33,784 nt of DNA. Origin: Alphaproteobacteria bacterium. GTDB taxonomy: Bacteria > Pseudomonadota > Alphaproteobacteria > VGDZ01. Below are positions 19,719 to 25,228 of this stretch, piece by piece; position 1 is the first letter of the stretch; each line of letters starts with the position of its first letter. A program made the translations under genes and the position numbers. Where the stretch lies: NCBI GenBank assembly GCA_016869515.1, contig VGDZ01000031.1, forward strand, positions 1 to 33,784. The letters run 5' to 3'. A model generated the notes under the pieces. That model had not been told where the DNA came from and made no database searches. It saw only the letters and a list, made by a program, of their open reading frames with translations.

Positions 19719-19747
19719 CACTTAGGCCATCAGGAAGGCATTGTCTA
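19719..19747 (-). promoter_or_regulatory. Candidate promoter of the gamma-glutamyltransferase gene
   Basis: On the minus strand TAGACA (19747-19742) and TAAGTG (19724-19719) are 17 bp apart, about 50 bases before the ATG. The -35 overlaps the -35 of the divergent gene on the opposite strand. The -10 is poor by E. coli standards. Confidence 0.4.
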
Positions 19748-19768
19748 AGGGGTTTGCCGGAGTAAGAT
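19741..19768 (+). promoter_or_regulatory. Candidate promoter of the coiled-coil protein gene
   Basis: TTGTCT (19741-19746) and TAAGAT (19763-19768) are 16 bp apart. The -10 ends only eight bases before the ATG at 19777, so the transcript would have almost no leader. No well-placed ribosome-binding site is present, which fits leaderless translation. Confidence 0.5.
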
Positions 19769-19776
19769 AGAGCGCC

Positions 19777-20313
19777 ATGTTCGACAATCTCTCTATCATC
19801 TTGATGATATTGATCGTCGGTGCCCCGGTTGCGGCCTTTCTGGTCTCCCGGATCGTCGCCCGCTACAAGCGCGAAGTGGCGATGTACGATTGGTCCAGCC
19901 AGGAGGTCAAGCGTCGCGGCTCGCGCATCGAAGAGATGGAAAAGAAATACAAGACCGTCGACACCACCATCGCGCAAATGCAACGCGAAAATCAGCGCCT
20001 GACCGACGAGGTGACGCGGCTGCAAAAAGAGCTCGAGACGCGTGGCGGCCCCAAGTCCCAAGCCGCGCCTGCCCCGGCCACTCCGGTCGCGCCGGGCAGC
20101 GAACGCAAGTTCGATGTCGGCATCTACAACAAGGAAGTTCGCGACCTGGTCGGCCAAGGCAAGAAACATAGGTCGCTCAACGTGTCGTGGGCCGACGTCA
20201 ATTACATCGAGTTCACCGCCGCCAACGAAGTCGATGCCCGCGCCCAGGCGGTCAAGAAATATCCCGCCGCCCAGGGCTACGTCATCTCCTCGATCCAGAT
20301 GCAGAAGTTTTAG
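19777..20313 (+). CDS. Membrane-anchored coiled-coil protein of unknown function
   Basis: I do not recognise the family. The 178-residue protein opens with one hydrophobic helix (MFDNLSIILMILIVGAPVAA), followed by positive residues (RYKREV), so it is probably a bitopic inner-membrane protein with its bulk in the cytoplasm. Residues of about 45-90 form a charged coiled coil (RIEEMEKKYKTVDTTIAQMQ and RLTDEVTRLQKELETR). An Ala/Pro linker leads to a C-terminal module of about 70 residues (FDVGIYNKEVRDLVGQGKK and VNYIEFTAANEVDARAQAVK, then AQGYVISSIQMQKF) that looks like a small alpha/beta domain. The layout resembles phage-shock-type or DUF-type scaffold proteins, but no assignment can be made. 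It is divergent from the broken gamma-glutamyltransferase gene and convergent with the thioesterase gene, nine bases away. Confidence 0.82.
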   Translation: MFDNLSIILMILIVGAPVAAFLVSRIVARYKREVAMYDWSSQEVKRRGSRIEEMEKKYKTVDTTIAQMQRENQRLTDEVTRLQKELETRGGPKSQAAPAPATPVAPGSERKFDVGIYNKEVRDLVGQGKKHRSLNVSWADVNYIEFTAANEVDARAQAVKKYPAAQGYVISSIQMQKF

Positions 20314-20322
20314 GCTGCCCGC

Positions 20323-20751
20323 TCAAACCGGCTTGACCGGCGCCAGGGCATAGGTCGAGGACACCATCGCCACCGGCTCGCTCTGCCCGACATTGGCGAT
20401 CGTCACCTCGCCGAACACCAGCGTCCGCCCCGACTTCAGGGTGCGCGCCTCGGCAACCAGATCGCCCTGGCCGGCCGGGCGCAGGAAATTGCTGGTCTGG
20501 GTGACGGTCGCCATCGGCCGGTATTCGCCCAAGGTGGCGGCGATGGCGAACACCATCGCCGTGTCGGCCAGTGCCATGATCGCTTGCCCGCAGATGATGT
20601 CGCCGGCGCGCATCAGTTCGGGCCGCGCCGGCAGGCGCAGCCGCGCCTTGCCCGGCTGCACGTCCTCGATCGCGATCTTCATGTCCTGGATCCAGGGCGC
20701 GAAGTTGCGTTTGAGCGCCAGATTGGCGTCCATCGCGGTGAAGCGGGCCAT
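20323..20751 (-). CDS. PaaI-like hotdog-fold acyl-CoA thioesterase
   Basis: This 142-residue protein fits the PaaI/YdiI hotdog thioesterase family. The core reads RAGDIICGQAIMALADTAMV, where the Gln-to-Asp stretch on the long central helix corresponds to the PaaI active site (GGAIxxLAD). TATVTQTSNFLRPAGQGDL follows, the substrate-binding strand and loop typical of the family. These enzymes hydrolyse short or aromatic acyl-CoA thioesters in the cytoplasm. It lies divergent from a fused aryl-CoA monooxygenase/reductase, with 63 bases between start codons and shared promoter elements, so an aryl-CoA product is a plausible substrate. The ATG at 20751 is supported by the -10 box six bases upstream rather than by a ribosome-binding site. 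An ATG at 20733 is an alternative. Confidence 0.85.
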   Translation of the reverse strand: MARFTAMDANLALKRNFAPWIQDMKIAIEDVQPGKARLRLPARPELMRAGDIICGQAIMALADTAMVFAIAATLGEYRPMATVTQTSNFLRPAGQGDLVAEARTLKSGRTLVFGEVTIANVGQSEPVAMVSSTYALAPVKPV

Positions 20752-20757
20752 GGCCGC

Positions 20758-20786
20758 GACTTAGCGCCATCGCGCCACATGGTCAA
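20758..20786 (-). promoter_or_regulatory. Leaderless-type promoter of the thioesterase gene
   Basis: On the minus strand TTGACC (20786-20781) and TAAGTC (20763-20758) are 17 bp apart. The -10 ends six bases before the ATG at 20751, so transcription should begin at or next to the start codon. The -35 overlaps that of the divergent monooxygenase promoter. Confidence 0.6.
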
Positions 20787-20808
20787 GTCCGGCCGCCGCC
20801 TCTAAGAT
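20780..20808 (+). promoter_or_regulatory. Leaderless-type promoter of the monooxygenase/reductase gene
   Basis: TGGTCA (20780-20785) and TAAGAT (20803-20808) are 17 bp apart, and six bases separate the -10 from the ATG at 20815. There is no ribosome-binding site. The arrangement mirrors the thioesterase promoter on the other strand. Confidence 0.6.
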
Positions 20809-20814
20809 CGCGCC

Positions 20815-23151
20815 ATGAAGATCGGCATCGTCGGCGGCGGTCCGGCCGGACTCTATTTCGGTCTGTTGATGAAACGCAGCGATCCGCGCCACCACGTGCG
20901 GATCTACGAACGCAACCGGCCGGACGACACCTTCGGCTTCGGCGTGGTGTTCTCGGACGAGACCTTGGCCGGCTTTCGCGACGCCGACGCCGCCAGCTTT
21001 CGTGACATCGTCGGCGGCTTCGCCTGGTGGGACGAGATCGAGGTTCGGGTCAAGGGCGCGCGCATCCGCTCGGGCGGGCACGGCTTCTGCGGCATCGCCC
21101 GCAAGGAGCTGTTGGCCATCCTCCAGCGCCATTGCCGCGAGGCCGGCGTGGAGTTGCGCTTTCAAGCCGAGGTCGGGGCCGATCTGCGCGAGGTCGCGGA
21201 TTGCGATCTGGTGCTGGCGGCGGACGGCATCAACTCGGCCATTCGCGAACGCCATCAGGCGCAATTCCGCCCCCGGCTCGATTGGCGCAAGAACAAGTTC
21301 ATCTGGCTGGGAACCACGCTGCCGCTCGATGCCTTCACCTTCATCTTCAAGCAGGATCCGGCCGGGCACGGCATCTGGAACGTGCACGCCTACAAGTTCA
21401 ATCGTGAACTTGCCACCTTCATCGTCGAGACCACCGAAAGCTGCTGGCGGCGCAACGGGCTCGACCGCGCCGACGAAGCGACCAGCGTCGCCTTGCTCGA
21501 AAACCTGTTTCGCGACGATCTTGCCGGCCACCGGCTGATCGCCAACAAGTCGATCTGGCGCACCTTCCCGACGGTGCGCAACGCCACCTGGCGGCACGGC
21601 AACATCGTGCTGATGGGCGATGCCGCTCACACCGCGCATTTCTCGATCGGCTCGGGCACCAAGCTGGCGATGGAGGACGCCATCGCCTTGTACCAGGCCT
21701 GCACCAAGCATCCGGATTCGGTGGCGCGCGCGCTCGAGGCCTACGAGGCCGGACGCAAGGACGAAGTCGAGCGGCTGCAGACCGCGGCCCAGACCAGCCT
21801 GGAATGGTTCGAGCAGGTCGAGCGCTATTGGAACATGGAGCCCGAACAGCTGACGCTGTCGATGCTGTCGCGCTCCAAGCGCGTGACTTACGACAATCTG
21901 CGCCTGCGCGATTCCGGCTACGGCGCGGCGGTCGATCGCTGGTGGCGCGGACACGCCGCGCGCGAAGGCACGCCGGTCCCGGCCGAGGCGCCGCCGATGT
22001 TCACGCCCTTCCGCTTGCGCGGGCTGACGCTCGAAAACCGGGTCGTGGTCTCGCCGATGTGCCAATACTCGGCCGAGAACGGCACCGTCGGCGATTGGCA
22101 TTTGGTCCATCTCGGCGGCCGCGCTATCGGCGGCGCCGGCCTGGTGATGGCCGAGATGACGGCGATCGCGGCCGATGCCCGCATCACGCCGGGCTGCGCC
22201 GGCGTCTATGCGCCGGGCCACATCGCCGCCTGGAAGCGGGTGGTCGATTTCGTCCATGCCAGCAGCCGCGCCAAGATCGGTCTTCAGCTCGGCCATGCCG
22301 GCCGCAAGGGCGCCACCTGTTTGCCCTGGGCCGGCGGCTACGATCGGCCGCTGCCCGAAGGCGCCTGGCCGATCCTCTCGGCCTCGGCCCTGCCCTATCG
22401 CCCCGACAGCCGGACGCCCAAGGCGATGGACGAGGCCGACATGGCGCGCGTTGCCGGAGAATACGCCGTCGCTGCGGGCCGCGCGCTCGAAGCCGGATTC
22501 GATCTGCTCGAAATCCATATGGCGCATGGCTATCTGCTGGCTTCGTTCATTTCGCCGTTGACCAACCGCCGCAACGACGGCTATGGCGGCGACGTCGAAG
22601 GGCGGATGCGGTTCCCTCTGCGCGTGTTCGACGCGGTACGCGCCGCCTGGCCCAAGGATCGGCCGATCTCGGTGCGCATCAGCGCCACCGACTGGGTCGA
22701 GGACGGCGGCCTGAGCGAAGACGATTCCCTGGCGGTGGCGCGGCTGCTGAAACAGCACGGCTGCGATCTGATCGACGTCTCGGCCGGCCAGACCGTGGCC
22801 GAGTCGAAGCCGGTCTATGGCCGCATGTTCCAGACCCCGTTCTCGGACCGCATCCGCAACCAGGCCGGCATTGCCACCATGGCAGTCGGCGCCATCACCA
22901 CCGCCGATCAGGTCAACACCATCGTCGCCTCGGGCCGGGCGGATCTGGCGGCGCTGGCGCGGCCGCACCTGGCGGATCCCTATTTCACGCTTCACGCGGC
23001 CGCCCAGTATGGCCACAAGGGAGCGGTCTGGCCCAGGCAGTACGAAGCCGGCGGCGAGCAGGCGCAGGCGCTGGCGGCGCGGGAACGGGCCGAACTCGAG
23101 GAGCTGCGCCGCGCCGCCCGCGCGACATCGCGTCCAAAAACGGGGGAATAG
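20815..23151 (+). CDS. Fused aryl-CoA flavin monooxygenase / Old Yellow Enzyme (2-aminobenzoyl-CoA or salicylyl-CoA type)
   Basis: This 778-residue protein joins two flavoenzymes. Residues 1 to about 385 are a PheA/TfdB-type FAD monooxygenase with the dinucleotide fold [13 protein letters not shown], the Asp-containing [12 protein letters not shown] and the FAD loop [20 protein letters not shown]. From about 396 to 765 it is an Old Yellow Enzyme: [70 protein letters not shown] and [11 protein letters not shown]. This fusion is known from 2-aminobenzoyl-CoA monooxygenase/reductase of Azoarcus evansii and from proteins annotated as salicylyl-CoA 5-hydroxylases. Either would hydroxylate, and perhaps reduce, an aryl-CoA ring. 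The substrate cannot be settled from sequence alone. The neighbouring divergent thioesterase could release the free acid. Confidence 0.88.
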
Positions 23152-24398: not shown

Positions 24399-24785
24399 AT
24401 GGTCCTGCCGATCACGTCGCTTTATGCCGGGTTGTTGGGAGCGCTGCTGGTGGGGCTGGCGGCGTTGGTGTCGCGCCAGCGCCTCAAGGGACGGCCCACC
24501 GACGAGACGTCGAACGACGCCCTCAACCGCGCCGTCCGTGTCCATGGCAACGCCACGGAATACGTCCCGATCGCGCTGATTCTGCTTGGCCTGCTCGAGG
24601 CCAACGGCGCGCCCGCCGACTGGCTGCATGTCCTGGGCGGAGGCTTGTTCCTTGCCCGCATTGGCCATGCCTGGGGCCTCAGCCGCCATTCCGGCCGCTC
24701 GCCCGGACGGTTCGTGGGCACCGTGGTCACGTGGTCGGCGATCCTGTTCGCGGCGCTGTGGCTGATCCAGCTGGCCTGGCCGTGA
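24399..24785 (+). CDS. MAPEG family membrane protein (first of tandem pair)
   Basis: This 128-residue protein has four hydrophobic helices and the conserved MAPEG motif NRAVRVHGNATEYVPIALIL on helix 2, the region that binds glutathione in eukaryotic members. Bacterial relatives (YecN type) are small inner-membrane proteins of uncertain function, some with glutathione transferase activity. GHAWGLSRHSGRSPGRFVGT is the equally typical loop before the last helix. The ATG at 24399 has GAGGGAG nine bases upstream and is preferred over a TTG at 24381. A second, similar gene follows after 53 bases. Confidence 0.88.
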   Translation: MVLPITSLYAGLLGALLVGLAALVSRQRLKGRPTDETSNDALNRAVRVHGNATEYVPIALILLGLLEANGAPADWLHVLGGGLFLARIGHAWGLSRHSGRSPGRFVGTVVTWSAILFAALWLIQLAWP

Positions 24786-24838
24786 CTTGCCTTCGGCACG
24801 GCATTCTGGTCAGATGATATTTAACCAGGAGGTAAAAT

Positions 24839-25228
24839 ATGACCTTGACCGTGATCCCGATCTACGCCGCGCTGTGCGGGCTGCTGATGACCTGGCTCGC
24901 CATCAACGTCGTGCGCAAGCGCGCCGGCACCAAGATCCTGTTCGGCGACGGCGGCAACATCGAAGTGACCGGCGCGGTGCGCGCGCACGGCAACACCGCC
25001 GAATACGTCCCCATCGCCCTGATCCTGCTGGCGATGCTGGAATTGGCCAAGGTCGAGGCGATGTGGCTGCACATCATGGGAGCGGCGCTGGTGCTGTCGC
25101 GGGCCTATTACTCGGTCGGGCTCGGGCGGCTGGACCGACCCTCGAACGGACGCCTGGTCGGCACCACGGTGACCTGGATCGTCACGGTGGTGGCGGCGCT
25201 GTGGCTATTGTGGATCGCGGCGCGTTGA
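24839..25228 (+). CDS. MAPEG family membrane protein (second of tandem pair)
   Basis: A 129-residue paralogue of the preceding gene with the same four-helix layout and the motif GAVRAHGNTAEYVPIALILL. The two share the helix-2 motif almost unchanged but differ elsewhere (for example SRAYYSVGLGRLDRPSNGRL here), so the duplication is old. AGGAGGT six bases before the ATG is the strongest ribosome-binding site in the region, in an AT-rich spacer (ATGATATTTAACC) that stands out from the surroundings. The 3' end overlaps the convergent GH17 gene by 24 bases. Function is unknown. Confidence 0.88.
   Translation: MTLTVIPIYAALCGLLMTWLAINVVRKRAGTKILFGDGGNIEVTGAVRAHGNTAEYVPIALILLAMLELAKVEAMWLHIMGAALVLSRAYYSVGLGRLDRPSNGRLVGTTVTWIVTVVAALWLLWIAAR

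Follow-up and report, generated by a model that had tools for sequence, protein, structure and literature searches.

Back-to-back promoters of predicted leaderless type with overlapping -35 boxes between a thioesterase gene and a fused flavoenzyme gene in an alphaproteobacterium

The closest described relatives of the arrangement considered here are the leaderless promoters of the Alphaproteobacteria. In this class, the most frequent spacer between the -35 and -10 boxes is 17 nt, and the -10 most often lies 6 nt before the transcription start. More than 60% of the promoters in the alphaproteobacterial species analyzed have no T at position -7, and the protein CarD has been proposed to aid promoters of this kind (PMC8407463). 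For example, 171 leaderless starts have been mapped in Sinorhizobium meliloti, all of them AUG (PMC3616915), and 119 leaderless mRNAs are described in Zymomonas mobilis (PMC7566282). A second group for comparison is the bidirectional promoters of bacteria, in which two divergent transcripts share a -10 box and have their starts on opposite strands, typically 10, 18 or 23 bp apart. In Escherichia coli, strong activation of one side of such a promoter represses the other (PMC12825309).

The locus described here is a 63-bp divergent intergenic gap (20752–20814), which holds both of the promoters discussed below. It lies in a 33,784-nucleotide stretch of DNA, called the window from here on, which is contig C31 of an alphaproteobacterial genome assembly of 3.69 Mb (166 contigs, 97% complete). 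This genome is the sole member of its family and its order among the genomes searched. The other genomes found in its class, and also the relatives of its flavoenzyme, indicate the Alphaproteobacteria. To the left of the gap, on the minus strand, is a gene for a 142-aa thioesterase of the hotdog fold (4HBT; 20323–20751), and to the right, on the plus strand, is a gene for a 778-aa fusion of an FAD monooxygenase and an Old Yellow Enzyme-type reductase (NF006101; 20815–23151).

The two sites in the gap have several features in common with the alphaproteobacterial leaderless promoters: a TTG-type -35, a 17-nt spacer, a -10 in which the last T is often missing, a distance of 6 nt to the start, an AUG start codon and no Shine-Dalgarno sequence. 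They differ in that their 5' ends are predicted rather than mapped and that two of them overlap back to back. The gap resembles the bidirectional promoters in that divergent mRNAs would arise from a short stretch in which one polymerase should exclude the other. However, it is the -35 that is shared, and the overlap is confined to the -35 boxes. The distance is 39 bp between the two -10 boxes and 64 bp between the predicted starts, which face away from each other. This is thus an ordinary promoter type for the Alphaproteobacteria, in a new instance and in an unusually compact arrangement. The explanation we regard as likely is that the gap consists of two back-to-back promoters of the housekeeping sigma factor, each of which would have transcription begin at the A of its ATG, so that both mRNAs would begin with AUG and be translated without a leader. 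Their pairing would then follow from the frequency of leaderless promoters in this lineage.

Layout of the gap

Read on the minus strand, the thioesterase promoter has a -35 TTGACC (20786–20781), a spacer of 17 nt, a -10 TAAGTC (20763–20758) and 6 nt (GCGGCC) before the ATG at 20751–20749. On the plus strand, the flavoenzyme promoter has a -35 TGGTCA (20780–20785), again a spacer of 17 nt, a -10 TAAGAT (20803–20808) and 6 nt (CGCGCC) before the ATG at 20815–20817. An earlier note on this DNA had described these boxes, spacers and distances, and all of them are found at these positions. It had also given 20780–20786 as the overlap of the two -35 boxes; the overlap is real, but that range is the union of the boxes, and the bases common to both are the 5 bp at 20781–20785. 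Without a mismatch, the minus-strand pattern occurs only once in the window. The predicted 5' ends are 20751 for the thioesterase mRNA and 20815 for the flavoenzyme mRNA, and the 5-bp overlap would then follow from packing two leaderless promoters, each 35 bp from -35 to ATG, into 63 bp.

The start codons are correct. The TAA of each -10 doubles as an in-frame stop four codons upstream of the respective ATG, which rules out a longer reading frame on either side. In addition, nearly all relatives have homologues of the two proteins whose alignment begins at residue 1. The absence of a ribosome-binding site, also reported earlier, holds as well: the longest Shine-Dalgarno match on either side of the gap is 3 nt, which is the background level. 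In contrast, the second of two tandem MAPEG-family genes, at 24839 and 4 kb from the gap, shows a match of 7 nt. These two genes lie on the plus strand at 24399–25228, and the Shine-Dalgarno sequence of the second, AGGAGG, is very strong.

Both promoters deviate from the E. coli consensus. A generic scan of the window for that consensus reported neither site, as the last T of the -10 is missing in TAAGTC and the second T of the -35 in TGGTCA. The former fits the common absence of T at -7 in alphaproteobacterial promoters. A CarD-type protein is encoded by a 263-aa frame of the source genome; a further frame, of 1171 aa, is taken to be Mfd.

Leaderless promoters across the genome

The use of such promoters elsewhere was examined in 2.36 Mb of the source genome, about two thirds of it, in which some 2,000 genes were called. 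Of the 752 ATG genes whose upstream sequence is free over 40 nt or more, 8.5% have TANNNT 6 to 9 nt upstream of the ATG, compared to 3.6% at other offsets, or 2.4 times the background. The counts at 6, 7, 8 and 9 nt are 24, 19, 9 and 12, against roughly 5 per position elsewhere. The excess is absent at TTG start codons and weak at GTG start codons, and such a signal specific to ATG is what leaderless translation predicts. The peak at 6 nt could be suspected of being an artefact of in-frame stops, with TAA at -12, but this was rejected since the out-of-frame distance of 7 nt peaks too and the signal is specific to ATG. Alignment of the upstream regions shows T, T and G at positions -23 to -21 relative to the -10, corresponding to a -35 with a spacer of 17, and 23 of the 64 TANNNT cases have TTG at a spacer of 16 to 18 (background 8.3%). 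These statistics, together with the published data on alphaproteobacterial promoters, support well the earlier proposal that both mRNAs of the gap are leaderless, which they probably are; the 5' ends themselves are predictions. Wide use of leaderless promoters can thus be read from sequence alone in an alphaproteobacterium to which none of the genomes searched is closely related.

Another promoter of the leaderless type is present on the plus strand of the window at 19741–19777 (TTGTCT-N16-TAAGAT-N8-ATG). The gene that follows it codes for a 178-aa protein predicted to be coiled-coil-like and is convergent with the thioesterase gene.

An unanchored motif search over all upstream regions converged on the Shine-Dalgarno sequence AGGAG rather than on a -10, so genes with a Shine-Dalgarno were taken out before a promoter matrix was trained. 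The matrix was derived from simple gene calls and anchored on TANNNT, and both genes of the present gap were left out of its training. Its consensus is T-T-G-C/A-C, a spacer of 17, T-A-G/T-N-N-T and a distance of 6 to 7 to the start. On both strands of the gap, the held-out matrix selects the same boxes, in the register of distance 6 and spacer 17, and scores the plus site at 10.97 and the minus site at 9.00. Among shuffled upstream regions, 0.06% attain the plus score and 0.55% the minus score. When the start-codon anchor is dropped, the two sites rank 15th and 46th of 202,524 window positions and are the top two near the gap. A matrix trained on the source genome can be used to predict leaderless promoters in it.

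One could argue that the boxes arose by chance and that both mRNAs carry leaders that simply have no Shine-Dalgarno. Indeed, about half of the ATG genes with free upstream sequence in this genome have no Shine-Dalgarno of at least 4 nt, so its absence alone proves nothing. However, among 20,000 dinucleotide-shuffled versions of the gap, the plus score was reached in 3, the minus score in 63 and both together in none, which, along with the rank of the two sites around the gap, makes chance a highly improbable explanation.

It is also rather unlikely, although less so, that only the plus promoter is leaderless, with TTGACC and TAAGTC being fortuitous and the thioesterase transcribed from elsewhere, such as from within the flavoenzyme gene. 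The minus site is indeed the weaker of the two, its -10 being the one without the last T. Its score is reached at 1.6% of far-upstream control positions, and a second minus-strand candidate starts at 20879 (CTGCGT-N18-TAGAGT). Against this, the register of the minus site is the modal one of the genome, it contains TTGAC and it outscores the candidate at 20879, and a thioesterase mRNA with a leader would still be without a Shine-Dalgarno. Leaderless promoters on both strands are thus still the preferred reading.

Among the points against the leaderless reading is that such expression is not ancestral for the flavoenzyme gene. In 92 of 107 relatives, the same start of the orthologue is preceded by a Shine-Dalgarno of 4 nt or more, and only 3 of the 107 score as leaderless with the matrix. 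A relative on a contig labelled Planctomycetota carries TGGTCA-N17-TAGATT-N6-ATG (L020, 4966–5003), the same layout as the plus promoter of the window. As the layout is seen in one relative of 107, it was regarded as coincidental. The site follows directly on a stretch with a duplicated tRNA-like 3' end.

The flanking enzymes and a common pathway

The flavoenzyme passes the model NF006101, for bifunctional salicylyl-CoA 5-hydroxylase/oxidoreductase, with 1135.5 bits (cut-off 1078) over residues 1–761, and its FAD-monooxygenase half and its Old Yellow Enzyme-type half are each matched over their own length. It thus has the fusion of monooxygenase and reductase in common with the known NF006101 enzymes, with a full-length match above the cut-off. 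The domain layout is presumably that of the 2-aminobenzoyl-CoA monooxygenase/reductase type. In 85 relatives, the recurrent neighbors of the flavoenzyme gene code for a benzoate-type CoA ligase, a short-chain dehydrogenase (SDR), an acyl-CoA dehydrogenase and an enoyl-CoA hydratase, as well as a MarR regulator, a Rid protein and ABC-transport proteins. The first four and the MarR regulator are absent from this window, in contrast to the usual setting of these enzymes, and the substrate is a prediction. For the thioesterase, the one model passed is TIGR00369, which describes hotdog thioesterase domains in general. With 38 bits, the protein does not reach the cut-off of 118.9 of the PaaI hydroxyphenylacetyl-CoA thioesterase model (TIGR02286).

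The symmetry of the gap had been taken in the earlier note as a sign that the two enzymes carry out one pathway step, in which the flavoenzyme hydroxylates or reduces an aryl-CoA and the divergent thioesterase frees the acid. As a pathway module, the two would be induced jointly from the shared gap. Both genes do belong to enzyme families that act on CoA esters, and the MFS gene downstream resembles 3-phenylpropionate transporters, but that match is under its curated cut-off and the thioesterase is far below the PaaI cut-off. No thioesterase of the 142-aa type was found near the flavoenzyme in the 85 relatives, none of the relatives examined keeps the pair, and the only weak hotdog match in these neighborhoods is about 4 kb away (L084). 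The relatives of the thioesterase are on other contigs or in other neighborhoods, the best of them next to genes for an ammonium transporter and a Na+/H+ exchanger or next to thiolase and SDR genes. Also, the usual partners of the flavoenzyme point to further processing of the CoA ester rather than to release of the free acid. A joint pathway module is therefore unlikely. The gap reveals no new pathway, and under the preferred reading of two leaderless promoters it would reflect a habit of the lineage rather than a single pathway step.

Two genes that favor a joint pathway lie elsewhere in the genome: a gentisate dioxygenase gene (contig C130) and a gene for a benzoate-type CoA ligase (contig C77) whose product is 55% identical to the usual partner of the flavoenzyme. 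They are possibly scattered pieces of a CoA-dependent degradation of aromatic compounds, so that the chemistry is possible, with no adjacency to the thioesterase gene. The gentisate 1,2-dioxygenase gene (L272) adjoins an SDR gene, and the ligase gene (L273) adjoins a luciferase-like monooxygenase gene.

Shared -35 boxes in other divergent gaps

Co-regulation of the two genes, which had also been read from the symmetry of the gap, does not follow from it and is unsupported. The overlap of the -35 boxes suggests, by its geometry and by analogy, that two polymerases would exclude each other and that only one at a time could occupy the gap. Competition between the genes would then be expected if at least one promoter is strong, and independent firing if both are weak. 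Such an overlap should bar simultaneous occupancy, and competition of this kind has been measured at the E. coli promoters with a shared -10, where one side is repressed once the other is strongly activated (PMC12825309). Furthermore, divergent gaps with two leaderless promoters are about as frequent as two independent events predict: among the 120 divergent gaps of 40–150 bp, 9 are of this kind compared to 5.6 expected, an excess that is not significant (p ~0.06). With a median length of 74 bp, the nine are shorter than the other gaps (93 bp; p = 0.017), as expected where no leader is needed.

In the 2.36 Mb, three gaps (63, 65 and 65 bp), the present one included, have -35 boxes that overlap by 5–6 bp. 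The central hexamers of the other two are TTGCAC and ATGCAA. In the first of these (contig C9; L164, 10706–10770), a single hexamer, TTGCAC/GTGCAA, provides both leaderless promoters with their -35, and the flanking genes code for a protein with no Pfam match and a MipA-family protein. The second lies between genes for a TPR/glycosyltransferase protein and a CoA-transferase, and no functional link is evident within either pair.

These gaps bear on whether the central TGGTCAA/TTGACCA could be the operator of a regulator of both genes instead of two -35 boxes. The heptamer does sit mid-gap in a quasi-symmetric position. However, no inverted repeat is centered on it, the repeats that were found run into the flavoenzyme coding sequence, and the geometry recurs in the other two gaps although their central hexamers differ, all of which makes an operator improbable. 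Two overlapping -35 boxes remain the better account of the heptamer, and they allow polymerase competition over two leaderless mRNAs to be tested. It is conceivable, though still doubtful, that one -35 hexamer serving two opposite leaderless mRNAs acts as an either/or switch, a compact design that recurs in this lineage.

An even shorter divergent gap of 47 bp on contig C43 (L227, 1189–1235) has two strong leaderless promoters (12.1 and 11.3). Here, each -35 overlaps or abuts the -10 of the other promoter, and one of the flanking genes codes for an acyltransferase, the other for a protein that matches no Pfam family.
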